A DNA stretch of 50,855 nt, from positions 1 through 50,855 of the forward strand of contig JAAYDF010000192.1 in assembly GCA_012729395.1 (NCBI GenBank). Reading direction: 5' to 3'. The position numbers and the translations under genes are program-made. Positions 93 to 20,485 of the stretch are shown here, piece by piece (positions within the stretch are counted from its first letter, which is position 1; every line of letters starts with the position of its first letter). The stretch is from Phycisphaerae bacterium (GTDB lineage: Bacteria > Planctomycetota > Phycisphaerae > UBA1845 > PWPN01). A model generated the notes under the pieces. The model saw only the letters and a program-made list of their open reading frames with translations. It was not told the DNA's origin and did not search any database.

Positions 93-857
93 TCATCGGT
101 TCTCCAACCTCCCGAGCAAACGCAGGAAACCATCCAGTATGGTGATGGGATGAGGTGGGCATCCCGGCACGAACAAATCGACCGGCACGCATGAGGCCGC
201 ACCGCCCAGACACTCATCATGGTCGGCGTAAGCACCTCCCGAGATCGCGCAGGCCCCCACGGCAATCACCAGCTTCGGCGCGGGTACTGCCGCGTAAGTC
301 TTCATCAGTGCGAGCTTCATGTTCGCGGTGACCGGCCCAGTGACCACGAGCCCGTCCGCGTGGCGGGGTGAGGCCACAAACTCGATGCCGAACCGGCTCA
401 GATCGAAAACGATCGTGCTGAGTACGTTCAGGTCCGCTTCGCACGCGTTGCAGCCGCCCGCGCTCACCTGCCGCAGTTTGAGCGATCGGCCGAACAGCCG
501 ACGCGATTTCTCGTCCAAGGCCCTGGCCAGGCGGTAAGCCGACCCGCTCACGACCAGATCATCCCGATCTCGTGTGGCCAGTCGGTGTTCATGGGTCAAG
601 GTGATCGCGCCGGCCGGACAGGCCTCGACGCAATCCCCACAGAACAGGCATCGCCCCAGGTCAAAGGCCAGACCACTCCCGTCTCGACGGATGGCCTGGG
701 TCGGACACACACGAACGCAGCTCTCACAGCGTTCGGTGCACTTGGACGCATCGATCGCGGGCCGACCTCGGAGCCGGTCCGGCAGGATGGGCTCGGCATC
801 CGGGTAGCCGACCGTCCGATGTTTCTGTCGAAGTCGAGCCGCGAAGACTTTCAGCAT
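93..857 (-). CDS. Ehr complex ferredoxin / small-subunit fusion (HyfH-HyfI-like)
   Basis: A 254-residue iron-sulfur subunit that should pass electrons inside a membrane-bound hydrogenase-related complex. Residues about 35-85 form a two-cluster ferredoxin domain: C40-C44-C47-C51 (first spacing Cx3C) and C70-C73-C76-C80, each followed by Pro. Residues about 120-250 are the NuoB/HyfI-like small subunit, with C136 and C139 in GGCNACE, C203 in GACAISGG and C233 in PGCPPHP as ligands of the proximal [4Fe-4S] cluster. An upstream in-frame ATG at 911 would overlap the previous gene. I chose the ATG at 857 because it has AGAGG five bases ahead and lies 8 bp after the previous stop. It is the last gene of the operon. 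In Hyf/Hyc systems the ferredoxin and small subunit are usually separate proteins, so this is a fusion. Confidence 0.88.
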   Translation of the reverse strand: MLKVFAARLRQKHRTVGYPDAEPILPDRLRGRPAIDASKCTERCESCVRVCPTQAIRRDGSGLAFDLGRCLFCGDCVEACPAGAITLTHEHRLATRDRDDLVVSGSAYRLARALDEKSRRLFGRSLKLRQVSAGGCNACEADLNVLSTIVFDLSRFGIEFVASPRHADGLVVTGPVTANMKLALMKTYAAVPAPKLVIAVGACAISGGAYADHDECLGGAASCVPVDLFVPGCPPHPITILDGFLRLLGRLENR

Positions 858-865
858 AGCTACCT

Positions 866-2389
866 CTACAGGTCGTGTCCGCAATAGGACAGGTTGAAGC
901 TCTTGTTGCACAACGGAAAGTCGGAGATCTGCTGGTCGCGGAGGGCCATCGCCAGCCCCATCCAGTTGTGGAAGGACGGATCCACGATCTTGTATCGCGC
1001 CAGTCGGCCGGCGTCGTCCGTCAAGGCGACGTGGCAGATTTCCCCACGCCAGCCCTCGATGAGGCTCGCCGTGATGCGCGACGGCGCCAAGGGCCCCAGC
1101 AAGTCACGGGTCCGGCTGGCCGGGAGCGAGCGAACCTGCTCGTCAATGAAGGCCAAGGATCGCTGGATTTCCAACCACCGCACGAAAGCTCGGGCGAAGA
1201 CGTCGCCGGTGTCCGCGGTCGAAACGGGAATGTGGGCGAATTGGTAGATGCCCGTCGGAAACTCGCGCCGGATGTCGCGTTCCAGGCCGCATGCCCGCGC
1301 GGCTACACCGACCAGCCCCAGCTCGATCGCCCTGTGCCGCGACACCGTTCCGGTCTCCTGAAACCTGCTCATCACGGAGGGCGTACTCCACAGCAACTCA
1401 ACCGCCTCGGTGACGTCGCGGCGAGCGGCTCTTAGTCGCTCCAGGAACTGCTGGCGACGAGCCTCGTCGAGATCGAAAGCGACGCCGCCCGGTCGGATAA
1501 GCCCGCGACCAAATCGGCTCCCGCAGATCAAGGCACTCATGTTGAGAAAGTCACCGCGGATGCGGCCGCAATACGACGACGTCGGCAGAAAGCCGATATC
1601 CCCGGCGAGCGCCCCGAGGTCGCCGGTGTGGTTGGCCAGCCGTTCGAGTTCGAGAGCGATCGCCCGAATGACCTGGGCGCGCGCCGGCACCCGAGAACCC
1701 GCCAAAGATTCCACCGCCTGGCAGTAGCATGTCGCGTGGCCGATCGACGTGTCGCCAGCGAGAGTCTCCATATAGTGAATGGTCCGTGCCGTGGGGCCGC
1801 CCGGCACGGCGCGTTCCACCCCGCGGTGCTGGTAGCCCAAAGAGATCTCGAGGTGGTAGACGTTCTCGCCGTGGCATTGAAAGCGGAAGTGGCCCGGTTC
1901 AATGATGCCGGCATGCACGGGCCCGACCGCGACTTCGTGCACCTCCTCGCCTTCGACCTCGAAGTAGTCCGTCACGCAGGGCTCGATGGCGGCTTCGGCA
2001 GGACGCCGCCACGCGTCGTGCCCCGGGCGATACGAGCGGTGAAACCGGATCGGCTTGAGCCAGGGATGACCTTGCGGTCGAACGCCCCATTGTTCGGCGA
2101 TCTCACGCTCGAACCAATGGGCGGCAGGACAATCGTGGGTCAGGGCGGGATACTCCTCCTCGACTTCAGTGGCACATATCTCAATCATGCCCGTCTCGGT
2201 GTGAGCCACGACGCCGATCAGTCGCACACGCGATTCCCCGGTGGGCATCCCGAACAGAGCCGTCAGCCTCGCTCCGCCTTGCACACGATCAATCAACGCA
2301 TCGCGAAACTCGGCGACCGTCAGGACAGGAACGCCGTCTGTTCGAGCCGATTCACCGTTGCGCAGAGCAAGACAAGCCACTTGGGCCAT
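866..2389 (-). CDS. Ehr complex large subunit (NuoC-NuoD / HyfG-like), without Ni-Fe ligands
   Basis: A 507-residue soluble subunit. The N-terminal 150 residues resemble NuoC/HycE-N (HWFEREIAEQWG), and the rest is NuoD/hydrogenase large-subunit-like (HLEISLGYQHRGVE, ELERLANHTGDLG). True [NiFe] hydrogenases carry CxxC motifs near each end of this domain. Here the first site reads AGDTSIGHATCYCQAVE (only CxC, at 221 and 223) and the C-terminal site reads DPSFHNW (470-476). The nickel centre therefore cannot be built in the normal way, which places the complex with energy-converting hydrogenase-related (Ehr) complexes of unknown substrate. ATG 2389 is preferred over GTG 2392 because GGGAGG sits six bases before it. 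The start overlaps the stop of the preceding membrane subunit (TGATG), suggesting translational coupling. Confidence 0.88.
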   Translation of the reverse strand: MAQVACLALRNGESARTDGVPVLTVAEFRDALIDRVQGGARLTALFGMPTGESRVRLIGVVAHTETGMIEICATEVEEEYPALTHDCPAAHWFEREIAEQWGVRPQGHPWLKPIRFHRSYRPGHDAWRRPAEAAIEPCVTDYFEVEGEEVHEVAVGPVHAGIIEPGHFRFQCHGENVYHLEISLGYQHRGVERAVPGGPTARTIHYMETLAGDTSIGHATCYCQAVESLAGSRVPARAQVIRAIALELERLANHTGDLGALAGDIGFLPTSSYCGRIRGDFLNMSALICGSRFGRGLIRPGGVAFDLDEARRQQFLERLRAARRDVTEAVELLWSTPSVMSRFQETGTVSRHRAIELGLVGVAARACGLERDIRREFPTGIYQFAHIPVSTADTGDVFARAFVRWLEIQRSLAFIDEQVRSLPASRTRDLLGPLAPSRITASLIEGWRGEICHVALTDDAGRLARYKIVDPSFHNWMGLAMALRDQQISDFPLCNKSFNLSYCGHDL

Positions 2390-3864
2390 CACAAGCCTCC
2401 CAGAGCTTTCGCGGCTCGATCAAGCAGATCCAGCAACGGGGCGGGAATCCAGATTCCCAGGCCCAGCACAACCATTCCCAGTAACGCGGGAGGAATCAAC
2501 GACAGGACAGGCTCGCGGCCTGGCTGATTCTCCAATGTCCACGAGGACCGCCCGTAAGCCATCCGCAGAAACACGCCCGCCATGCCGACGAAGATGATCC
2601 CCAGGAAACCCAGGTACAAAACGGCGACCGCGACGCGACCCTGCTCCAAGGCCGACTTGAGCACGATGAACTCGCTGAGAAACGTACCGAACGGAGGAGT
2701 GCCGGTAATCGCCAGGAACCCCGCCAGCCAGAGTGCCGCCGATACCGGAAGCGCACACAACGCCCCTCGAATGTCCCGGCAGGACTTGGTCCCGTAGACG
2801 CTCAGGATGTTGCCCGCGATCAGGAACAGCATGGCCTTGGTAAGCGAGTGATTCACCGCGTGGAGCATGGCCCCGAAAGCTCCAACTCCCCCCAAGCCCA
2901 CACCCAGTGCGAGAATGCCCACGTGCTCCACGCTGGAATAGGCCAGCATGCGCTTGTAGTCCTGCTGACCGACAATGAAGACGGCAGCCACACCCATCGA
3001 GATGAGGCCTAGAAGAACCAGCATCTCCTGTCCAAACGCCGCGCAATCAGCGGCCGCAAGCACCTGGTACGCCCGTAGAATGCTTAAAAACGCACAGTTC
3101 AGTAGGGCGCCGGAGAGCAGTGCGGATACAACCGCCGGAGATTCGCTATGTGCGTCGGGCAGCCAGGTGTGCAGCGGGGCCAATCCCATCTTGGTGCCGT
3201 AGCCGACCAGCAGGAAGACAAACCCGAGCTTGAGCCATGCGTGGTCGAGCTGTGATCCTCGTCGCACCAGCTCGTCGGTGAGCAGCGAGACGGTGGCCCC
3301 GGTCGAGTCCGTGGCGGATACGGCGACCAGGAAGATCCCGAGAAGCGCCAAGGCGATCCCGACCGAGCAGATCAACAGGTACTTCCAAGTCGCCTCAAGC
3401 GAGCGATGATGCCGGTGATAGTAAATCAGGGGAGCGCTCGCCAGTGTCGTCGCCTCCACCGCGACCCAGGTCAAGCCGAGATGGCCGCTCAGGCTCACCA
3501 GCGTCATCATGGCAAGGAAAAGCAGAAGGCAGCCGGTGAACACCGCCTCGGGAGCGTTGACGAAAAGGAATCCGTCTTCGAAATCCTTCCGCCGCCCCGG
3601 TGCTTCGCGGCGAAGGTAGCCGATGCCGTAAAAAGAAGCCGTGAGAAAAAGCACGCTGGTGATGCTGAGGAAAAGCAGCCCCAACTCGTCCAGCCTCAGC
3701 AAGCCATCCAGGGCAGGACTCGGCGGACACAGCCAAGCCCGTGTGGTCAGCCCGGCGTGTGCCAAGGCCACCGCGAGCAGCAGCGCTCGGCGCATCCCAT
3801 CAGGCCGGATCACAAACGCCGTGAGCCCGGCCAGCCCAGGGATAAGAAATAATGCCGCCACCAT
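2389..3864 (-). CDS. Ehr complex antiporter-like membrane subunit (HyfF/NuoN-like)
   Basis: A 491-residue polytopic membrane protein of the NuoL/M/N (Mrp antiporter) family, most like HyfF. It should form one of the proton- or sodium-pumping channels. Visible features are about 13-14 hydrophobic segments, the conserved core around GYGTKMGLAPLHTWLPDAHS, and the following lysine/histidine region AMLHAVNHSLTKAMLF, which are the ion-channel signatures of this family. The ATG at 3864 has AGGA seven bases upstream. The gene follows the HyfE-like gene by a few bases and overlaps the large-subunit gene. Which ion is moved cannot be told from sequence alone. Confidence 0.85.
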   Translation of the reverse strand: MVAALFLIPGLAGLTAFVIRPDGMRRALLLAVALAHAGLTTRAWLCPPSPALDGLLRLDELGLLFLSITSVLFLTASFYGIGYLRREAPGRRKDFEDGFLFVNAPEAVFTGCLLLFLAMMTLVSLSGHLGLTWVAVEATTLASAPLIYYHRHHRSLEATWKYLLICSVGIALALLGIFLVAVSATDSTGATVSLLTDELVRRGSQLDHAWLKLGFVFLLVGYGTKMGLAPLHTWLPDAHSESPAVVSALLSGALLNCAFLSILRAYQVLAAADCAAFGQEMLVLLGLISMGVAAVFIVGQQDYKRMLAYSSVEHVGILALGVGLGGVGAFGAMLHAVNHSLTKAMLFLIAGNILSVYGTKSCRDIRGALCALPVSAALWLAGFLAITGTPPFGTFLSEFIVLKSALEQGRVAVAVLYLGFLGIIFVGMAGVFLRMAYGRSSWTLENQPGREPVLSLIPPALLGMVVLGLGIWIPAPLLDLLDRAAKALGGL

Positions 3865-3868
3865 CCAT

Positions 3869-4513
3869 TCATTCCTTCAACTGGGACAACTGATCGGTGT
3901 CGATGTGGTCGAACTCCCGGCTGATATGGAAGATCGCAATGCCCATCACGAACACCGCTACGAACACGTCGAGCAGGATGCCCATTTCCACGAGGAACGT
4001 CGCCTGCCGAGCAAGCCCGACGCCGAACACGAAAATGCCGTTCTCCAGCGCCAGATAGCCGAGCACTTGAGTGACCGCCTTGCGCCGGCTGACAATCAGC
4101 AGTAGGCCGATCAGAATGGCGTGAAATGCGGTCGGCACCAGCAACGGCGAAACGCCGGCGTCCAGATGCGGCAGACGACCGGTTAGCCATATGGCGAAAG
4201 GTAATGCCAGTGAACCGATCAGCAGCGACGAGGCGAACCCGACGAACGGCTCGACCTCCTGCCTGATAGCAGCCTCTCGGATCGCCCTCTTCAACAAGCG
4301 AGGGAATACGAAACCCTTGATCGCGACCGTGCCGGCCACAAGAACCAGTACGTGCAAAGACAGCTGCTCCCGCTGCACGCCGATGGTGATGAGCCCAAGA
4401 AGCACGCCCTGCAAGGCCATGACGCGAATGCACGTCCCCAACGAACTGAGCCCCGTCAAGGCCAGGTTGGTCAGAACCACGGTGATCAAGATCACGTCTG
4501 TCCACACTTGCAT
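3869..4513 (-). CDS. Ehr complex membrane subunit (HyfE-like)
   Basis: A 214-residue membrane protein with about six hydrophobic segments. Its second half resembles NuoK (small channel subunit), and its length and the sequence LGYLALENGIFVFGVG match HyfE. It should sit between the large antiporter-like subunits in the membrane arm. The ATG at 4513 lies 4 bp after the HyfC-like stop and the stop lies 4 bp before the HyfF-like start, so the genes are tightly packed in one operon. Confidence 0.82.
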   Translation of the reverse strand: MQVWTDVILITVVLTNLALTGLSSLGTCIRVMALQGVLLGLITIGVQREQLSLHVLVLVAGTVAIKGFVFPRLLKRAIREAAIRQEVEPFVGFASSLLIGSLALPFAIWLTGRLPHLDAGVSPLLVPTAFHAILIGLLLIVSRRKAVTQVLGYLALENGIFVFGVGLARQATFLVEMGILLDVFVAVFVMGIAIFHISREFDHIDTDQLSQLKE

Positions 4514-4517
4514 GCCG

Positions 4518-5429
4518 TCACCTCAGTACCAGGACAAGCGCAATAATCGCAATCGCGCCGGCTCCAACGAGCATCTGCGGAACCCGCAAAAGCCGAAGCC
4601 GGGCCATCATCGATTCAATGACCCCGATCACGATTGCCAGCAACAGCATGCCCACGAGAAAAGCTGCGATATCCATCATCGCCCACCCGGTCCGCAACGG
4701 CATGCAGAGCCCGACCAGCAGGGCGCCAAATACCCATAGCTTCAATGCGGCCGCATAAAGGATGAACGCCAGATCCGGCCCGCTGTAATCGAGGACCATG
4801 ACTTCGTGGATCATGGTCAGCTCCAGGTGCGTGTTGGGATCGTCCACGGGAATGCGAGAGTTCTCCGCGAGGCAGACCACCAGCAGGGCGGCCGATACCA
4901 TGGCGAGTGTCGGACCGGCCTGCATCCATACGCCGAAGGTGATTGAAGAATAGATCCCTGAGAATGAAATGCTGCCCGAATGGCGAGCCAGCGTCGCCAT
5001 CGACAGCATCAGTACCGGCTCGACCAAGGCCGAGAACTGCACCTCGCGGCTGGCCCCCATACCCTCGAAGCTCGAGCCGGTGTCCAAGGCCCCAAGCACC
5101 GTGAAGAAACGCATGAGTCCAAGCACGTAGGCAAAGAGGATGATGTCGCCCGGGAAGGCCAGCATGGCCTGAACGCTCCCAATGGGCAGGAGGGCCAAGG
5201 CTACGACTACCGCCGACAGACCGACAAGCGGTGCCAACCGAAAAACAAGCGTTGTCGTCCCGCTGTAGACCGCGCCTTTGCCCAGCAGCTTGGCCAAGTC
5301 ACGGTACGGCTGAAAAACCGATGGACCACACCGCCCCGCGAACAGAGCCTTCACCTTGTTGATGACCCCCCGCAACAACGGGGCCAGCATCAAGGCCAGC
5401 ACAGGTTGGCACAAACCAATGAATCGCAT
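4518..5429 (-). CDS. Ehr complex membrane subunit (HyfC/NuoH-like)
   Basis: A 303-residue NuoH/HyfC-family protein, the membrane anchor that joins the peripheral iron-sulfur arm to the ion-pumping arm. Recognisable parts are KALFAGRCGPSVFQPYRDL near residue 30, the loop FEGMGASREVQFSALVEP near 130, and the acidic segment PVDDPNTHLELTMIHEV near 195, all typical of NuoH-type subunits. About eight hydrophobic segments are visible. In complex I this subunit lines the quinone cavity; whether a quinone binds here is unknown. It sits 4 bp after the HyfB-like gene. Confidence 0.86.
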   Translation of the reverse strand: MRFIGLCQPVLALMLAPLLRGVINKVKALFAGRCGPSVFQPYRDLAKLLGKGAVYSGTTTLVFRLAPLVGLSAVVVALALLPIGSVQAMLAFPGDIILFAYVLGLMRFFTVLGALDTGSSFEGMGASREVQFSALVEPVLMLSMATLARHSGSISFSGIYSSITFGVWMQAGPTLAMVSAALLVVCLAENSRIPVDDPNTHLELTMIHEVMVLDYSGPDLAFILYAAALKLWVFGALLVGLCMPLRTGWAMMDIAAFLVGMLLLAIVIGVIESMMARLRLLRVPQMLVGAGAIAIIALVLVLR

Positions 5430-5433
5430 GGTC

Positions 5434-7428
5434 CTATTCCAGCTTCCACAGAAGCAGAGCCAGTAGCGTCAGGGCAATGTACAAGACGTATATCTGCACC
5501 CGGCCGTGCTGGAGCCACCGCAGCCTGGAAAGCAGCCATCCGACACTCCGGAACATCGGGCGGTAGAACTTCTCCCGGCAGACATCGTCCGTGTGCGTGA
5601 CCAGCGAGGCGGATGCCGGGAAAAAATCGACAGGAGGAGCAAGCTTTGTGTGAGTTTGCAGAAATACCCGGAAGAACCATGTCAGCGGCTGGGCAAACGA
5701 CGATGCGGTGTACTGCATGCGAGCGGTTGGCCGGGCGTAGCCACAATCCCAGGTGACTGTGCTGGATACATCCCGGCCAGCAAGCAGCCACCTGCGAAAG
5801 ACCATCAATCCGCCAGTGAGCACCAGCAGGACTATGCTGGCTGCGACCACCGCACTGAGAATCTCACGCGGGCCGGCCATCGTCGCACGGATGCTCTCGC
5901 TCGGCATGCCGGCAACCACCGTAATCGCCGGCGCCATCGCCACGATGACGAATGGACCCAGTAAGCCGATGGCTGCGCATCCAGCAGCCAGGACCAACAT
6001 CGCCAGACGCATCAACCCGCCGCACTCGTGACTGCCGGCCGCCTGGGCCGACCGCGGCTCGCCCAGGAAAACCGCGCCAAACGCCTTGGTGAAGCACGCC
6101 GATGCCAGACCGCCGATCAACGCCAACCCGACAACCACACCCACAACTAGCGGCAGATGTGAGCCGGTCGCCCACCTCACCCCTTTCAGTGCCCCAAGGT
6201 AGATCAGCAGCTCGCTCACAAAACCATTCAGTGGCGGCAACCCGCAGATCGCCACCGCCCCGACCAGGAACGTCCAACCAGTCCACGGCAGCCGCTTGAG
6301 AAGGCCCCCCATGCGATCAAGTTCCCGGCTCCCAGTCCCGTGCAGCACCGCTCCCGCCCCCAGGAACAGCAAACCCTTGAAACACGCATGATTGAGCACA
6401 TGCAGCAGCCCGCCGCCGAAGCCCAGCACCGCCATCGGAGTCGACTGCAGGCTCAGGCCCAGCAGCCCCGTCCCCAGACCCAACGCGATGATCCCGATGT
6501 TCTCAACGCTGTGGTATGCAAGGAGTCGCTTGAGGTCGTGTTGCGCCAAGGCAAACAAAACGCCCAGTACGCCGGACACCAGCCCAATGCCGATCAACAG
6601 CAAGCCCCACCATGCCGGCGGTGGCCCGAGAAACGTCAGCGTTCGCAGAAGACCGTAAATCCCGGTCTTGATCATCACACCCGACATGACCGCCGACACA
6701 TGACTCGGTGCCGCCGGGTGGGCCTCGGGCAACCATACATGAAGAGGCATGAATCCGGCCTTCGTCCCAAACCCCACCACCGCCAGGACGAGTATCAGAC
6801 TCGCGTGAGCGACCGGCTGGCTCATGCTACCGAAGCTCGCGAAGTCCATGGATCCTGACGCCCGCCCCAGCAGGATGAACATCGCCAGCAGAAACGCCGT
6901 CCCCAGATGAGCGGCCACCAGATACGTCCAGCCCGCCCGCCACGCACCCTCATCTTCGTGCTCGAAGGTCACAAGGAAGAAGGACGCCAGCGACATGATT
7001 TCCCACGCGATCAGAAACAACACGGCGTTCTGGGCGGTCACGACCACGACCATGCTGCCGACCAGCAGGTTGAAGAAAAACCAAGGTGGCCCGAGCGACC
7101 GCCGTTGGCGGTAAGACTGGAGGTACTCGGCCCCGTAGATCGCCGCCAAGCCGCACAGAGAGTAGATCGCGACCAAAAAGAGCGAGGCAAGGGCGTCCAA
7201 AACGAAAACGCAATCACCCAAAGGCATCGACCATGCCAGTCGAAGAACCTCCGCCGGCTGACCGAGGAGCACTCTAACCGAAGGCACCAGGCCCAGACCG
7301 CAACCGATCACCGTTCCCACACAACCCATAGCACTGGCCACCCGAGGCCAGCGAGAAACCAGCAGCGCGATCAGCCCGCTTGCAACCATCAGGCCGACAC
7401 TCGTCATGAGCAGGCAGATGTTCGTCAC
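5434..7428 (-). CDS. Ehr complex large antiporter-like membrane subunit (HyfB-like)
   Basis: A 664-residue membrane protein of the NuoL/HyfB type with roughly 16 hydrophobic segments. The channel core is clear: FGTKAGFMPLHVWLPEAHPA followed by HDLKRLLAYHSVENIGII and HVLNHACFKGLLFL, each carrying the conserved Lys/His/Glu residues of Mrp-type channels. The C-terminal part (WDCGYARPTARMQYTASSFA) is also typical of HyfB. The start is GTG 7428, sharing four bases (GTGA) with the stop of the upstream regulator gene, so the regulator and the complex are co-transcribed and probably translationally coupled. Confidence 0.87.
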   Translation of the reverse strand: MTNICLLMTSVGLMVASGLIALLVSRWPRVASAMGCVGTVIGCGLGLVPSVRVLLGQPAEVLRLAWSMPLGDCVFVLDALASLFLVAIYSLCGLAAIYGAEYLQSYRQRRSLGPPWFFFNLLVGSMVVVVTAQNAVLFLIAWEIMSLASFFLVTFEHEDEGAWRAGWTYLVAAHLGTAFLLAMFILLGRASGSMDFASFGSMSQPVAHASLILVLAVVGFGTKAGFMPLHVWLPEAHPAAPSHVSAVMSGVMIKTGIYGLLRTLTFLGPPPAWWGLLLIGIGLVSGVLGVLFALAQHDLKRLLAYHSVENIGIIALGLGTGLLGLSLQSTPMAVLGFGGGLLHVLNHACFKGLLFLGAGAVLHGTGSRELDRMGGLLKRLPWTGWTFLVGAVAICGLPPLNGFVSELLIYLGALKGVRWATGSHLPLVVGVVVGLALIGGLASACFTKAFGAVFLGEPRSAQAAGSHECGGLMRLAMLVLAAGCAAIGLLGPFVIVAMAPAITVVAGMPSESIRATMAGPREILSAVVAASIVLLVLTGGLMVFRRWLLAGRDVSSTVTWDCGYARPTARMQYTASSFAQPLTWFFRVFLQTHTKLAPPVDFFPASASLVTHTDDVCREKFYRPMFRSVGWLLSRLRWLQHGRVQIYVLYIALTLLALLLWKLE

Positions 7429-8138
7429 TTGTCACCACCCGCGGCCGATGCTGTGGGAGCCATGCCGGCAAGATCGGACTCAATCCGAGCGATCTCGGCG
7501 AGAATGTCGCCCCGAGAGCCCTGGTCCCTGAGCAGCTGCTTCAGTGACGGTTCGCGGAGAGCGAATGACAGCAACGACAACATCCGCAGGTGCGAACGAA
7601 CGGTCGGGCTGATCATCGCAAATAGCGTGTGCACCGGCTGGGCGTCGATCGCCTCAAACTCGATCGGCCGCTCCAGAAAGCACAGGGCGACCATGGGTTG
7701 GGTCACATGCAGAATGACCGGGTTCCGCACGTGCGGGATGGCGATGCCATCCCCGATGCCCGTTGATCCGAGCGACTCACGCGCGAGCAACACCTGGTAC
7801 AGAAACTCACGGTCTACGCCATCCGGTAGCCGCAGCACCTCGACGACAGACTTGAGGGCGGAAGCCTTGTCATCCCCCTCAATCCGATAGAACACGCCTC
7901 CCGCTTTGAGGGCCTCCGACAGCTTGCAGGGCTCAGACCCGGCGCTCTCCGGCTCCGCGAACATCTCGGCCGAGAGGTTCATCCGCCTTGACGTTGCCCA
8001 TTCAAGAAGTTCAGTGCGATTGAATTTGAACTGGTCGCCGATCCGGTAGACAGGAAGAGTCCCCTGGTCGATCCACCGGTAGATGGTGCGTTCCGAAACA
8101 CTCAAGAGCGATGCGACATCTCTAACCGTTAGGTTCAT
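7425..8138 (-). CDS. HTH (excisionase-type) - PTS EIIA(Ntr)-like regulator heading the Ehr operon
   Basis: A 237-residue two-domain protein. Residues 3-50 are an excisionase/MerR-like DNA-binding fold (TVRDVASLLSVSERTIYRWI ... YRIGDQFKFNRTELLEW). Residues about 70-220 are a PTS EIIA type-2/Ntr domain with the phosphorylatable histidine in GIAIPHVR (His136). EIIA(Ntr) proteins are phosphate-accepting sensors that report on carbon, nitrogen or potassium state; here one appears wired directly to DNA binding. The ATG at 8138 has GGAGG seven bases upstream. A longer frame to 8204 would start inside the promoter and is rejected. No EI, HPr or transporter EIIB/C genes are nearby. Inference: it senses energy or nutrient state and controls the operon, possibly through the repeat at 8169-8194. 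Confidence 0.85.
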   Translation of the reverse strand: MNLTVRDVASLLSVSERTIYRWIDQGTLPVYRIGDQFKFNRTELLEWATSRRMNLSAEMFAEPESAGSEPCKLSEALKAGGVFYRIEGDDKASALKSVVEVLRLPDGVDREFLYQVLLARESLGSTGIGDGIAIPHVRNPVILHVTQPMVALCFLERPIEFEAIDAQPVHTLFAMISPTVRSHLRMLSLLSFALREPSLKQLLRDQGSRGDILAEIARIESDLAGMAPTASAAGGDK

Positions 8139-8168
8139 TGAACGCCTCCGTCCGCCATCTTCGCCATG

Positions 8169-8194
8169 ATGCGTCATATTATGAAGTATGCGTC
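8169..8194. promoter_or_regulatory. possible operator: direct repeat around the -10 box
   Basis: The heptamer ATGCGTC occurs at 8169-8175 and again at 8188-8194 (19 bp start to start, about two helical turns), flanking the -10 element of the Ehr promoter. The spacing would suit a dimeric DNA-binding protein. The first gene of the operon encodes such a protein, so autoregulation is a reasonable guess. No experimental support. Confidence 0.4.
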
Positions 8195-8204
8195 GGCGTG
8201 TCAA
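8176..8204 (-). promoter_or_regulatory. sigma70-type promoter of the Ehr operon
   Basis: On the minus strand TTGACA (8204-8199) is followed by a 17-base spacer and TAATAT (8181-8176). Transcription would start near 8169, about 30 bases before the regulator's ATG at 8138. The -35 box is perfect and the -10 matches 4 of 6. Confidence 0.6.
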
Positions 8205-8252
8205 TACAAGTCATCGCACATTCTGCCCAACGTCTGGTGAGCCACGCCAGGG

Positions 8253-8281
8253 TTGACAGAAGTCGTCCTGGGCTGGAGAAT
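8253..8281 (+). promoter_or_regulatory. sigma70-type promoter of the S41 protease gene
   Basis: TTGACA at 8253-8258, a 17-base spacer, and GAGAAT at 8276-8281 (4 of 6). The expected start is near 8288, about 34 bases before ATG 8322. A TTG codon at 8253 that would lengthen the protease frame is the -35 box itself, which argues against the longer reading. Confidence 0.6.
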
Positions 8282-8321: not shown

Positions 8322-9659
8322 ATGCCGAAACGTAACATCGTCTGGTTGATCGTCGGGGCGGTCATTGCCGTCCTGTTGTGGAAGGTTCCCGAGACCCGGA
8401 TTCGTCGGGACACCATCTACAGCAAATTCAGCCCGCTGCTCGATGTGCATGTGCAGGTGGCCAAGCACCACGTCGAGGAGGTCGACGACCAAGACCTGCT
8501 GCGCGGCGCGATTGACGGCATGCTCAGCCGTATCGACCCCTACAGCGCCTACTTCACCGAGGAGGAGTACAAGGAGTTCGAGAAACGTACTCAGGGCCGC
8601 TTCTCAGGCATCGGTGTCCATGTGGCTATCACGCCCGGACACGGTTTGGTTGTGGTGAGCCCCATCGAGGGCAGCCCGGCCTTCCGGGCGGGCCTGCGAA
8701 CCAATGACCTTATCACCCATGTGGATGGGACTCGGACTATCGGCCTGTCGCTCGACAAGTGCGTGCGTATGATCAGTGGCGAGCCGGACACCCAGGTCCA
8801 ATTGACCATTCAGCGTTCCGGCGTGGAAGACCCTTTCGATGTCACCATCGTCCGCGGGATGGTGAATGTGCCTTCGGTTCGCGGTTGGGCCCGCACCGCC
8901 GATTTCACCTGGGACTACCTCATCGACTCCGAAATGCGGATCGGTTATGTGCGTATCCTCAGTTTCGAGGGCCGAACGGCCGAGGATTTCCGGGAGATCG
9001 TCGACGACCTCTACAACCAACACCAGATTCGCGGTTTGATACTCGATGTCCGCGACAACCCGGGAGGATTGCTGAGCGAGGTCGTCGAGATCGCCGACCG
9101 CTTCATCACCGAGGGGCTGATCGTCAGCACCAAGGGGCGGGAGGCGCCGCCCGTCCCCTATCGAGCCAACGCCCAGAACGCCTATCCTCGTCGTCCCATG
9201 GCCATTCTGGTCAATGCCGGATCGGCCAGCGCTTCCGAGATTCTTGCCGGTGCTCTGCGGGATCATGGCCGGGCGGTGGTCGTCGGCGAACGGACCTTTG
9301 GCAAGGGCTCCGTGCAGAAGATTCTCCAGGTCGAGAACAACCACGGGTTGATCAAGCTCACCACGGAGTACTACTATCTGCCCAACGGAGAACGTATCCA
9401 CGGCAAAGGTATCGCTCCGGACCACATCATCGACCTGACCCCGGATGAACGCACCCGTCTTCTGGAGTCCTGGATGGCGGTTTACTCCGCGACGAGGCTG
9501 CCCACGACGACACAGGCGGCGACCTCCTCCGCGCCAGCCACCGAGCCCGCCGAGGAACGCTTTGAGATCACCCTGGATCGCCAACTGATGGAAGCTCTGA
9601 ATGTGGTGCGTGCTCAGATCGAGACCCCACAGGAGCCCGTCCCCGGCGTCAACCCTTGA
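8322..9659 (+). CDS. S41 family C-terminal processing peptidase (CtpA-like)
   Basis: A 445-residue periplasmic, membrane-anchored serine protease. Residues 5-22 form an uncleaved signal or anchor helix, about 90-180 a PDZ domain (GSPAFRAGLRTNDLI), and 200-370 the tail-specific protease core. The Ser-Lys dyad is visible as Ser303 in NAGSASASEI and Lys328 in RTFGKGSVQ, with the usual 25-residue spacing and Gln332 four residues on. Family members cut proteins near their C-terminus, often in envelope maintenance or signalling. The C-terminal 60 residues are Thr/Ala/Pro-rich. ATG 8322 was chosen over TTG 8253 because the latter overlaps the promoter. It is transcribed away from the Ehr operon. Confidence 0.88.
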   Translation: MPKRNIVWLIVGAVIAVLLWKVPETRIRRDTIYSKFSPLLDVHVQVAKHHVEEVDDQDLLRGAIDGMLSRIDPYSAYFTEEEYKEFEKRTQGRFSGIGVHVAITPGHGLVVVSPIEGSPAFRAGLRTNDLITHVDGTRTIGLSLDKCVRMISGEPDTQVQLTIQRSGVEDPFDVTIVRGMVNVPSVRGWARTADFTWDYLIDSEMRIGYVRILSFEGRTAEDFREIVDDLYNQHQIRGLILDVRDNPGGLLSEVVEIADRFITEGLIVSTKGREAPPVPYRANAQNAYPRRPMAILVNAGSASASEILAGALRDHGRAVVVGERTFGKGSVQKILQVENNHGLIKLTTEYYYLPNGERIHGKGIAPDHIIDLTPDERTRLLESWMAVYSATRLPTTTQAATSSAPATEPAEERFEITLDRQLMEALNVVRAQIETPQEPVPGVNP

Positions 9660-16299: not shown

Positions 16300-17112
16300 A
16301 TGGCGATAGCCGCGATGCATGCCGCTGCGACCGGGATGAAGGCCCTCGACACGAAGTTGAATGTCGTGGCCAACAACCTGGCGAACATCAACACGGTGGG
16401 GTTCAAGCGGTCGCGGACCAACTTCGAGGATTTGCTGTATCAGGTTCGCCGGGAGCCTGGGGCGAGGGACTTCAACGACGAGCCGATTCCCCACGGCATC
16501 CAAGTGGGGCTGGGTGTGGCGGTGTCGGGTACGCAGTTGAGTTTCCAGTCCGGCAGCGTGGACCCGACGAATCGCCAGCTGGACTTGGCCATCCAGGGCG
16601 AGGGCTTCTTCCAGGTTCGGACGATCTACAACGGGCAGGAGCTGATTGCGTATACGCGGGCGGGGAATCTGGTTCGGAACGCGAACGGCAACCTGGTTTT
16701 GGCGAACAGCGAGGGAGCGATTGTCGAGCCGGCGATCACCATTCCGCAGGATGTTGCTGAGGACGGCATCGTGATCGCCAACAACGGTCAGGTTTCGGTT
16801 CGGCAGCAGGGCAACAACCAGCTGAATCAGATTGGGCAGCTCGAGCTGGCTCGATTCGTGAATCCTGAGGGGCTGCTGTCGATTGGGAAGAACCTGTACA
16901 TCGAGACGGATGCCTCGGGAGCCGCGATCACGGGGAACCCTCTGCAGGAGGGATTGGGTGATTTGCGGCAGGGTTTTCTCGAGGGCAGCAACGTGGAGCC
17001 GGTGCGAGAGTTGGTGGATTTGATCTTCACGCAGCGAGGTTTCGAGATGAACTCGCAGTCGATCCAGAGTGCGAACGAATCGTTGCAGGTGGTGACGAAT
17101 CTGCGGAGGTAG
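16300..17112 (+). CDS. flgG: flagellar distal rod protein FlgG
   Basis: A 270-residue distal rod protein. It shows the family start (MAIAAMHAAATGMKALDTKL), the rod motif NVVANNLANINTVGFKRSRT, the middle segment LAIQGEGFFQVR, and the C-terminal VEPVRELVDLIFTQRGFEMN helix that packs inside the rod. Length is close to the usual 260. The gene begins 21 bp after flgF and clearly shares its transcript. A 176-bp gap follows before flgA. Confidence 0.94.
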   Translation: MAIAAMHAAATGMKALDTKLNVVANNLANINTVGFKRSRTNFEDLLYQVRREPGARDFNDEPIPHGIQVGLGVAVSGTQLSFQSGSVDPTNRQLDLAIQGEGFFQVRTIYNGQELIAYTRAGNLVRNANGNLVLANSEGAIVEPAITIPQDVAEDGIVIANNGQVSVRQQGNNQLNQIGQLELARFVNPEGLLSIGKNLYIETDASGAAITGNPLQEGLGDLRQGFLEGSNVEPVRELVDLIFTQRGFEMNSQSIQSANESLQVVTNLRR

Positions 17113-17288
17113 GCGAGGGGAGACAGGCAAGGAGTGAGGAAGCTGGTTTTCCGAGAGGGCGGGCATGGTGTGCCGGCTGTAACGGCTCGGTGATTCAGAG
17201 GAGGTAGCGCCGCAAGGATAGACGAGGCAGCAAGACACACGCGGAGTCGTGCAGGTGGCTTGGAGCTGAAACGGCGCGGAGGTCGTCG

Positions 17289-18500
17289 ATGCAGGATGCA
17301 GCACGAATAACAGTGAGAAGGAGTACGAACAGCCGATCTTGGGTTACGGATCGAGCGGCCGGAACGGTCGCGTGGCTGGTCGCCGTCGTGCTTCTTCAAC
17401 CCGCTTGGGTAGAAGGATCGGAGGCTTCGGCTCGGGGAGGGAGCGAAGGCTCGTCGGAGACCGTGGTTCGTCTTCATGCGACCGCTTTGGTGACCGGCAC
17501 GGAAGTGACGCTGGCCGATGTGGCCGATCTTCAGGGTGACGCGGCGCGGTTGGCGGGGTCGTGGGTTGTGGCGGCGGCGCCGGCGGACGGCGGCTCGAAG
17601 CTTGTCACCCTGGATCATGTCCAGCAAATGCTGGGGCAGCGCGGCGCGAACCTTTCGTCCTGGCTGTTTCGCGGGGCGAGCCAATGTCTCGTCAGTCGGC
17701 CGGAGTACACCCGTGCCGGCTCTGCGGTGCGTGTGTCGCATCCCTCTTCGATTCAAGGGCCGTCGTCGTTGGCCCATTCCGCGCCGACGGCAACGCAGAC
17801 CTCCGAAGAAGCGGCTTCCGTCTCACCGGAGAGTCTCGAAGGTCACCTGCGAGGGCATCTGGCGGCCCGGTTGGCGGGGCTTGGCGGCAAGCCGGTCGTT
17901 CAGTTCAGCCCGGCGATGCACAATCTCCTTTCGCTCACGGAACCCACCTACCAGTTTCGTATTGCCGACCGCGGCGACCGGCTGCTGGGCCTGTTGTCGC
18001 TGGAAGTCACGATTCACGAGGGCGAGGAGCTCAAGCAGGTTGTTCCGATGCTGGTGCAGGTGTCGTTGAGCAAGCAGGTGGTGGTAGCGGCTCGGCAAAT
18101 CAACCGGAGCGAGGTGATCGGGCCGCAGGATCTGACCCTGGCGGAGCGGGTGTATGAACGGCCGGAGGACGTGGGGATCAACGAACCGGCCAAGTTGGTT
18201 GGCCAGCGGATCAAGCGATTTGTCCAGGCCGGCGAACAGGTATCGGTCCGTGATGTTGAGCCGATGCCGCTGGTTTCGCGGAATGATCTGGTCACGGTGA
18301 CCATCCGGCGGGGCCATGTGGTGATCCGCGGGGTGGCCAAGGCGATGTCCACGGGGAGCTACGGTGCAACGGTCACGCTGAAGAACGAGATGTCCCGCGA
18401 GACATTCAGTGCGGTGGTGACGGGGCCGAGGACGGCGGAGGTCGAATTGGGCGGCTCGAGTGCGTTGGCCTCGGCTATGGACAGAGAGGTGGCACCATGA
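17289..18500 (+). CDS. flgA: flagellar P-ring assembly chaperone FlgA
   Basis: A 403-residue exported chaperone needed to assemble the FlgI P-ring in the periplasm. A signal or anchor helix lies near residues 25-45 (GTVAWLVAVVLLQPAW). The C-terminal 140 residues carry the SAF/FlgA domain (VVVAARQINRSEVIGPQDLT ... VGQRIKRFVQAGEQVSVRDV ... VRNDLVTV-type beta strands). It is much longer than enteric FlgA (about 220), because of an N-terminal domain resembling a second SAF-like segment (LVTGTEVTLADVADLQGDAA). GGAGG lies seven bases before ATG 17289. Its stop overlaps the flgH start by four bases (ATGA). Confidence 0.87.
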   Translation: MQDAARITVRRSTNSRSWVTDRAAGTVAWLVAVVLLQPAWVEGSEASARGGSEGSSETVVRLHATALVTGTEVTLADVADLQGDAARLAGSWVVAAAPADGGSKLVTLDHVQQMLGQRGANLSSWLFRGASQCLVSRPEYTRAGSAVRVSHPSSIQGPSSLAHSAPTATQTSEEAASVSPESLEGHLRGHLAARLAGLGGKPVVQFSPAMHNLLSLTEPTYQFRIADRGDRLLGLLSLEVTIHEGEELKQVVPMLVQVSLSKQVVVAARQINRSEVIGPQDLTLAERVYERPEDVGINEPAKLVGQRIKRFVQAGEQVSVRDVEPMPLVSRNDLVTVTIRRGHVVIRGVAKAMSTGSYGATVTLKNEMSRETFSAVVTGPRTAEVELGGSSALASAMDREVAP

Positions 18501-19279
18501 GGCGAGCGGACGCGAGCGTGGTTTCGCAAAGCATGGTTGTTCTGGCGTTGCTGTGCGTGGTTTGGCCGGCGGGTGTGTGGGCACAGAGTTCGTCGCTGTT
18601 TCGACCGCCGGTCGATCGATCGGCTGGGCAGGACATGACCGGCTATCCGAGTGAGGTGGCTTCGGCGGCGGATCCTGGGTTTGTGGCGATGCCGCCGCGG
18701 GAGACGTCACGGCCGGCCACCCGGGCCATCGAGCGAATGAGCCTCATTGCCGTGCCCACCGTACCGCCGCGGAAGTTCAAGGTGCACGATCTGATCAACA
18801 TCATCGTTCGCCAGCAGAAGAAGTACGAAGGCGACGGCAAACTGGACACGAAGAAGCAGTGGGATGTGGCGGGGAAGCTGGAGGATTGGTTCCGGTTCTA
18901 TCCTGGGAACAAGCTGGGGCAAGACCAGTTGAGCAATGGCGATCCGGGCTTTGACTTCAAGTTCGAGAATAGGCTCAAGACGGATGCCGAGAGCGAGCGT
19001 GAGGACAAGTTCGTCACGCGGATTGAGGCGACGATCATCGACGTGAAGCCGAACGGCAACCTGGTGATCGAAGCTCAGTTGAGGCAGGAGCACGACGAGG
19101 AGCAGTTCACGCTGACGCTGACGGGCGTGTGCCGAAGCGAGGATGTGACCCCGGACAACACGGTTCTCAGCTCGCAGATCGCTGAGTTGACGTTGGTGGA
19201 GAAGAACCAAGGGGCGGTTCGGGACTCGACGCGGCGTGGATGGATTCCGCGGACGTTGGATTGGCTGCGGCCGTTCTGA
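18497..19279 (+). CDS. flgH: flagellar L-ring protein FlgH
   Basis: A 260-residue outer-membrane ring protein. Recognisable family parts are KVHDLINIIVRQQKKYEG, the middle segment with WDVAGKLEDWF, FVTRIEATIIDVKPNGNLVI, and TPDNTVLSSQIAELTLVEKN near the C-terminus. The signal peptide (VVLALLCVVWPAGVWA) ends in an AxA-like site. I see no lipobox cysteine, although enteric FlgH is a lipoprotein, so this ring protein may not be lipidated. The presence of L- and P-ring genes indicates a Gram-negative-type envelope with an outer membrane. Overlaps flgA by four bases. Confidence 0.9.
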   Translation: MRRADASVVSQSMVVLALLCVVWPAGVWAQSSSLFRPPVDRSAGQDMTGYPSEVASAADPGFVAMPPRETSRPATRAIERMSLIAVPTVPPRKFKVHDLINIIVRQQKKYEGDGKLDTKKQWDVAGKLEDWFRFYPGNKLGQDQLSNGDPGFDFKFENRLKTDAESEREDKFVTRIEATIIDVKPNGNLVIEAQLRQEHDEEQFTLTLTGVCRSEDVTPDNTVLSSQIAELTLVEKNQGAVRDSTRRGWIPRTLDWLRPF

Positions 19280-19324
19280 GGCATGGCTCTTTTGGGTGGT
19301 TGAGAGTACGTGGTGGAGATTGTG

Positions 19325-20485
19325 ATGAGCGTCGTTGGACCGACAACGCGAATACGAAGATGGCTGCCGGTGTTGGCGGTTCTGGTCGGTTCGGGCACCG
19401 CGCTGGCCGTGCCGAAGATCGGGGACATCACGCACCTGCAGGGTTCGCGGACCAACAAGCTGATGGGTCTGGGTCTTGTGGTGGGGCTGCCGGGTACGGG
19501 CGACGGCGGGAAGTATGCTCCGACCATCCAGCACCTGGCGATGCTGCACAAGAACTTTGCCAGTCCGGTAGTCAGCGCGGAGGCTCTGCGGGAAGCGAAG
19601 AACGTGGCCATCGTTCAGGTGGAGGCGACGTTGCCGCGTGATGGTGTGCGTGAGGGGGATCGGGTGGATGTGGTGGTGAGCAGTTTGGGGCCGGCCAAGA
19701 GTCTGCGGGGCGGGCGGCTGTTGCTGGCGCCTTTGGTGGGTCCGAATCCCGACGATTCTCGTGGGGTGATGGCTTTGGCGAGCGGTCCGGTGCAGGTTGA
19801 GGATCCTGAGGTGCCGACGGTAGCCCGCGTCAGTCAGGGCGCGACGCTGGAGCAGGACTGGATACACACCTACGTCGTGCTGGGTCGCGAGTTGCCGGCC
19901 CCCGTGCGTGCACACGAAGGGATTCGCCTGGATGAGCCGTATGTGACGCTGGTCATCGGCGAGCCGCATGCGGAGTTTGCCATCGCCTACACGATCGCCC
20001 GCACGATCAATAGCGAGGTTGAGGTTGGGACTGGTGGGACGAGTGAGCCGATCGCCATCGCGATTGATCCGCGCACGGTGGTCGTGCGGATTCCCGCGGC
20101 CGATCGGGCCAACCCGGCCGCGTTCCTGTACCGGGTCAATGGCTATCAGTTGATCATGCCGTTGACGGAGGCGCGGGTCACCATCCACCGGGCGTCGGGC
20201 ACGATTGTTATCAGCGGCGACGCGGAGATTTCGCCGGCGGTTATCAGCCACAAGGGGCTGACCATCACCACGGTGGTGCCGCCCGTGCGCCCGACGGCGG
20301 AGAACCCGCAGATGGTGACCCAGCAGTTCGTGGCCATCGACCCGGAGAACAAAGGCGGGGCCAAGCTGCGCGACTTGGTGGATGCGTTGAATCAGCTTCG
20401 CGTGCCCGGTTCGGACCGGATCACGATCATCCAGAAGCTGCATGAGATTGGGCGGTTGCACGCGACGTTGATTGTTGAGGATTAA
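19325..20485 (+). CDS. flgI: flagellar P-ring protein FlgI
   Basis: A 386-residue periplasmic ring protein around the rod. After a signal peptide (LPVLAVLVGSGTALA), the mature chain begins with VPKIGDITHLQGSRTNKLMG and continues with GLGLVVGLPGTGDGGKYAPT, GDRVDVVVSSLGPAKSLRGG and GRLHATLIVED at the end, all hallmark FlgI segments. ATG 19325 has GGAG eight bases upstream and is preferred over GTG 19310. flgJ begins 12 bp downstream. Confidence 0.94.
   Translation: MSVVGPTTRIRRWLPVLAVLVGSGTALAVPKIGDITHLQGSRTNKLMGLGLVVGLPGTGDGGKYAPTIQHLAMLHKNFASPVVSAEALREAKNVAIVQVEATLPRDGVREGDRVDVVVSSLGPAKSLRGGRLLLAPLVGPNPDDSRGVMALASGPVQVEDPEVPTVARVSQGATLEQDWIHTYVVLGRELPAPVRAHEGIRLDEPYVTLVIGEPHAEFAIAYTIARTINSEVEVGTGGTSEPIAIAIDPRTVVVRIPAADRANPAAFLYRVNGYQLIMPLTEARVTIHRASGTIVISGDAEISPAVISHKGLTITTVVPPVRPTAENPQMVTQQFVAIDPENKGGAKLRDLVDALNQLRVPGSDRITIIQKLHEIGRLHATLIVED

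Follow-up and report, generated by a model that had tools for sequence, protein, structure and literature searches.

How do bacteria control their energy-converting hydrogenase-related (Ehr) complexes? These complexes are common, and have been described as lacking NiFe-binding motifs and as being of unknown function (PMC10284858, PMC6349859). The question is raised by a stretch of 50,855 nucleotides from a Phycisphaerae bacterium (the window), in which a gene for a DNA-binding protein fused to an EIIA(Ntr)-like domain precedes hyf-type genes. The window is a whole contig, and the distal end of the operon is therefore cut off. The first-pass annotation had considered this protein the most likely undescribed control system in the window.

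Regulator and operon in the window

The first-pass annotation described the protein as an excisionase-type helix-turn-helix (HTH) joined to an EIIA domain with a phosphorylatable His136. This was confirmed by Pfam, with HTH_17 and PTS_EIIA_2 both above their cut-offs, and by alignment to E. coli EIIA(Ntr) (PDB 1a6j), in which Arg57, His73 and His120 correspond to Arg120, His136 and His183 of the regulator (Table 1). His136 sits within GIGDGIAIPHVRN, and all three residues are invariant across 38 relatives. At the level of aligned residues, the active site of the EIIA domain is shown to be intact. Fold comparison of an AlphaFold2 model (mean pLDDT 87), which concerns the EIIA part only, gave EIIA(Ntr)/PtsN structures as the best matches (Z ~18). 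Because the protein missed the NCBIfam equivalog cut-offs for PtsN (69-70 bits versus 139 and 221 for TIGR01419 and PRK10896), its EIIA domain is, by sequence score, a relative of PtsN and not PtsN itself. The HTH matched the NCBIfam excise model (E 4.8e-15) and the BldC subfamily (E 3.5e-5), missing the cut-off of the latter (23.6 bits versus 77), and its sequence found only weak matches in the PDB (RacA, E 0.035).

Table 1. Coordinates of the features discussed, given as positions in the window
Feature	Position	Strand	Basis
HTH-EIIA regulator gene (237 aa, ATG start)	7425..8138	-	ORF call, Pfam
HTH_17 (BldC/MerR-like) DNA-binding domain, residues 3-52	7983..8132	-	Pfam E 2.5e-15
EIIA(Ntr)-type domain PTS_EIIA_2, residues 77-217	7488..7910	-	Pfam E 6.4e-25; AlphaFold2 model compared with PtsN structures
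His136 codon, predicted phosphorylation site	7731..7733	-	alignment, conservation
GGAGG ribosome-binding site of the regulator	8145..8149	-	sequence
-10 box TAATAT, spacer 17	8176..8181	-	sequence
-35 box TTGACA; in relatives, the GACA within it doubles as an operator half-site	8199..8204	-	sequence, register from relatives
Degenerate operator-like region	8163..8212	-	register from relatives; window copy weak
hyfB-like Mrp/NuoL-type subunit	5434..7428	-	ORF call, Pfam/NCBIfam; 4-base overlap with regulator
hyfC-like (NuoH family)	4518..5429	-	Pfam
hyfE-like	3869..4513	-	Pfam/NCBIfam
hyfF-like Mrp-type subunit	2389..3864	-	Pfam/NCBIfam
hyfG-like large subunit (EhrL) without NiFe CxxC motifs	866..2392	-	Pfam, alignment
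Fused ferredoxin and 20-kDa small subunit (HyfH/HyfI-like)	93..911	-	Pfam/NCBIfam

The four bases that the regulator had been said to share with hyfB are GTGA (7428-7425). Its reported place as first gene of an operon for an ion-pumping complex was likewise borne out, with hyfB, C, E, F and G and a fused subunit following it. Both CxxC motifs of HyfG have been replaced, the first by AGDT and the second by NLSYCG, in the window and in 71 aligned relatives (truncated or aberrant ends aside). This loss rules out a group 4 [NiFe] hydrogenase. Since HyfG lacks the NiFe ligands, the operon is assigned, from its encoded subunits, to an Ehr complex rather than a hydrogenase. The window combines Hyf-like subunits with antiporter-type proteins; described Ehr complexes likewise have membrane and large subunits of the Hyf kind that lack NiFe ligands (PMC10284858, PMC6349859).

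Near the vacated NiFe site of HyfG/EhrL (866-2392), most of the 72 sequences conserve Cys residues in CNKSFNLSYCGHDL and, often, in AYCQ; these residues may mark a new site or a disulfide. The Ehr operon of locus L038 has a hypF-like maturation gene behind it (17018-19459), though the complex lacks NiFe ligands. Clustering of all ORFs from 94 loci revealed no recurring operon genes besides the regulator and the Hyf subunits. A link to the divergent S41 peptidase gene (8322-9659) was ruled out, as this gene does not recur beside the regulator in relatives. Its ORF was called from a TTG at 8253 (+), where a TTGACA promoter box begins; the true start is probably the ATG at 8322 (+).

The regulator has the fold and the active-site Arg, His and His of EIIA(Ntr)/PtsN, but differs by its HTH fusion; the ptsN of the host's hpf/HPr/EI cluster is a separate gene. 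PTS activators of the MtlR/LicR type contain PRD and EIIA domains. With these the regulator shares a DNA-binding domain, an EIIA domain and PTS phosphorylation (here predicted). Unlike them, it has no PRD (a Pfam scan gave HTH and EIIA alone), no sugar permease, and an ion pump as its predicted target. Chlamydial PtsN_2 and other HTH-EIIA proteins have the same two-domain architecture, and are not known to have a tie to Ehr.

Linkage of the regulator to Ehr operons across genomes

To delineate this linkage, 84,980 genomes were scanned with a protein alignment of the regulator, and the best 79 relatives were kept. In 76 of these 79, hyfB lies directly downstream on the same strand, and one of the three exceptions stops at a contig edge. 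The proposed tie to the Ehr operon thus stood, and the possibility that the regulator occurs mostly elsewhere, which would have spoken against it, did not hold. The operon behind these 76 relatives is the same hyfBCEFGI set as in the window. Regulator and hyfB are separated by a median of 0 bp, and 21 of 73 relatives show an overlap of exactly four bases (-4).

The first-pass annotation had looked to Planctomycetota alone, which proved too narrow. By the labels of the 79 best relatives and the tree, Ehr-linked regulators span about ten phyla. The labels are Planctomycetota, Verrucomicrobiota, Lentisphaerota, Kiritimatiellota, Fibrobacterota, Spirochaetota, Latescibacterota, Acidobacteriota, Myxococcota, Thermodesulfobacteriota, Methylomirabilota and Omnitrophota; as many of the relatives are MAGs, individual assignments may be wrong. 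Across this range, one type of Ehr operon begins, as a rule, with the gene for the HTH-EIIA protein. Within Planctomycetota, 26 of 294 genomes contained a strong regulator match, 28 a strong Ehr large subunit and 21 both, versus 2.5 expected (hypergeometric p 1e-21, kinship uncorrected). Less favourable to a dedicated link, the large subunit was not found in 5 of the 26 regulator-bearing genomes, nor a strong regulator in 7 of the 28 Ehr-bearing ones, partly owing to broken contigs.

Ehr-linked regulators form one supported clade (98/95), separate from other HTH-EIIA clades. The wiring had been called uncommon, but HTH-EIIA fusions are widespread, and the host itself has a second one, which falls in a widespread paralog clade (100/100). 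The fusion itself is neither new nor rare. We found no paper tying an HTH-EIIA protein to Ehr or Hyf, and no description of a dedicated PTS-type regulator of Ehr complexes, in the open-access literature; subscription journals lay outside this scope, and absence is unproven. An operon-dedicated HTH-EIIA switch for Ehr, with its own candidate operator and found across phyla, appears undescribed in that literature.

Two regulators of the Ehr clade occur without Ehr (loci L055 and L074), one preceding a SulP anion permease and the other, in Singulisphaera GP187, a carbonic anhydrase gene. A plasmid collection yielded no full-length relatives, its matches being confined to the EIIA part.

A repeat element at regulator promoters

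TGTCC repeats became apparent on reading the regulator upstream regions side by side. In 90 such regions, TGTC pairs at 10 bp occurred 40 times, versus 0.05 in dinucleotide shuffles, and GACA pairs at 10 bp occurred 33 times, versus 0.2. Distances from GACA to TGTC peaked at 26 and 36. The element consists of TGTCC direct repeats at an exact 10-bp spacing and an inverted GGACA pair that takes in the -35 box, with the consensus TTGACATTTATGGACA-N12-TGTCCAAAGATGTCCA. Relative to the -35 box, its half-sites are GACA at +2 (inside TTGACA), GACA at +12, TGTC at +28 (its first letter being also the final one of the -10 box) and TGTC at +38. The repeats overlap with both promoter boxes, -35 and -10, as well as with the start region.

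Of 90 regulator promoters, 66 contained exact repeats and 81 contained them when one mismatch was allowed; 150-bp pieces drawn at random from the same loci gave a background of 1.0% and 6.6%, respectively. No exact repeats were found in the promoters of 21 paralogous HTH-EIIA genes or of four Ehr operons without a regulator. A search of 36 whole genomes with the four-part pattern and at most one mismatch yielded nine sites, all nine at a regulator promoter, 18-86 bp upstream of the gene. At most two mismatches gave 35 sites, versus 20 for a reversed-pattern control; the excess is 15, and 15 of the sites lie at the regulator promoter. Because all strong sites lie at the regulator promoter and the excess is matched by them, the element travels with the regulator gene. 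In the 36 genomes, and at the tested stringency, this promoter is its sole target.

The conserved and almost exclusive pattern is probably bound by the regulator. BldC, which has a related HTH, binds direct repeats head to tail (PMC5859096). The regulator shares its HTH family with BldC/MerR-like HTH_17 regulators, and its candidate operator resembles theirs in having direct repeats spaced by roughly one turn of the helix. In contrast, BldC is an HTH only and uses 9-bp repeats (PMC5859096), while the regulator described here has a 10-bp spacing, two inverted pairs and an additional EIIA domain.

The window's own copy of the element is weak. Its half-sites, GACT (8212-8209), GACA (8202-8199), TGAC (8176-8173) and TGGC (8166-8163), form two pairs at 10-bp spacing in the register of the relatives, with two mismatches in the downstream pair. 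In three siblings (L038, L039 and L071), TGTC stands at +18 and +28. For the window promoter, the case for an operator is one of kinship, not of its own letters.

A predicted autorepressor with PTS input

We estimate a probability of about 0.6 that the protein is a dedicated one-piece Ehr autorepressor whose EIIA domain reports the PTS phosphorylation state. That figure applies to the whole chain; the step of a dedicated local regulator is rated above it. The BldC/MerR-like HTH would bind the 10-bp-spaced direct repeats over both boxes (-35 and -10) and the start of its own promoter, and the bound regulator would repress the regulator-hyfBCEFGI transcript. The EI/HPr relay of the host would phosphorylate His136 of the EIIA(Ntr)-type domain, and the phosphorylation state of this residue would alter DNA binding, setting the number of Ehr ion pumps. 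We infer the binding, the sign of regulation, the phosphorylation and the signal, the binding being likened to the head-to-tail mode of BldC.

In the host, single genes for HPr and EI lie in one cluster with a separate ptsN (ptsN-HPr-EI, with hpf). HPr was found in 34 and EI in 33 of 35 regulator-bearing genomes. An EIIC permease was found in one of 18 such genomes and not in the host (one EIIC family searched). The host also encodes an EIIA fused to a Na+/H+ exchanger (G000 C59 871-2562, L176) and another fused to a universal stress domain (C203, L177). The presence of HPr, EI and ptsN, the rarity of EIIC and these fusions make a regulatory PTS feeding into ion transport plausible on independent grounds. 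In known PTS(Ntr) systems, the phosphorylation state tracks PEP/pyruvate and nitrogen status.

With regard to sign, the half-sites take in the -35 box and the start region, and promoter spacers are ordinary (16-18 bp), so that repression appears more likely than activation from site position alone. The regulator and its target do stand under one promoter, as might suit an activator of the operon, and relatives of MerR are activators that bind between -35 and -10. The ordinary spacers argue against classical MerR activation, however, and the hexamers are good (at least 9 of 12 matches in 69 of 87 promoters), which leaves an activator unlikely in our view. A further question is where the EIIA domain acts. 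EIIA(Ntr) acts on K+ transport systems by protein contact, and the domain might similarly act mainly on the assembled complex, with the HTH merely steadying its own level; hence the cotranslation. The conserved four-base overlap, the position in the same operon, the exchanger fusion of the host and the overlap of sister HTH-EIIA genes with ClC channel genes all fit this arrangement. The conserved operator-like element on the operon's own promoter instead indicates selection for transcription control, and we consider action mainly by contact to be improbable.

Two components of the autorepressor model have their own alternatives. That the repeats are bound by another regulator, with the HTH-EIIA protein binding elsewhere or nowhere, would agree with their lack, even with one mismatch allowed, in 9 of 90 regulator promoters. 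Yet they accompany the regulator gene even where it is not linked to Ehr (L055, L122 and L157), and are absent before paralogs and regulator-less Ehr operons, making a different binder very improbable. Neither EI nor HPr was found in one regulator-bearing genome (G080), as would be expected if the EIIA domain were a non-phosphorylated module for ligand binding or oligomerization. Against this, the three active-site residues are invariant and EI and HPr are nearly always present, and such a module seems quite unlikely.

For Ehr complexes, the regulator and its candidate operator provide a first handle on control. A dedicated regulator with likely PTS input would tie Ehr expression to the phosphorylation state of the regulatory PTS, and would suggest a purpose for EI and HPr in bacteria without a detected EIIC sugar permease. 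Together with its candidate operator, the regulator offers an assay feasible in a laboratory host.

Beyond Ehr, a sister HTH-EIIA clade (100/98; loci L161, L163, L164 and L166) comprises genes that overlap or abut a ClC-type channel gene, as seen in L161, L163 and L164. The TGTCC repeats are absent from the promoters of this clade. On a tentative and rather doubtful extension, HTH-EIIA proteins would make up a general class of local controllers that a phosphorelay drives and that act on genes for ion transport (Ehr, ClC, SulP and possibly carbonic anhydrase), each repressing its own operon and contacting its pump; where sugar PTS permeases are lacking, the PEP/pyruvate ratio would set ion pumping.

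Six loci (L123, L124, L050, L065, L106 and L114) have a tandem of two HTH-EIIA genes, differing in subtype, ahead of hyfB; the pair may encode a heteromeric regulator. Many operons with such tandem genes also have two copies of hyfB.
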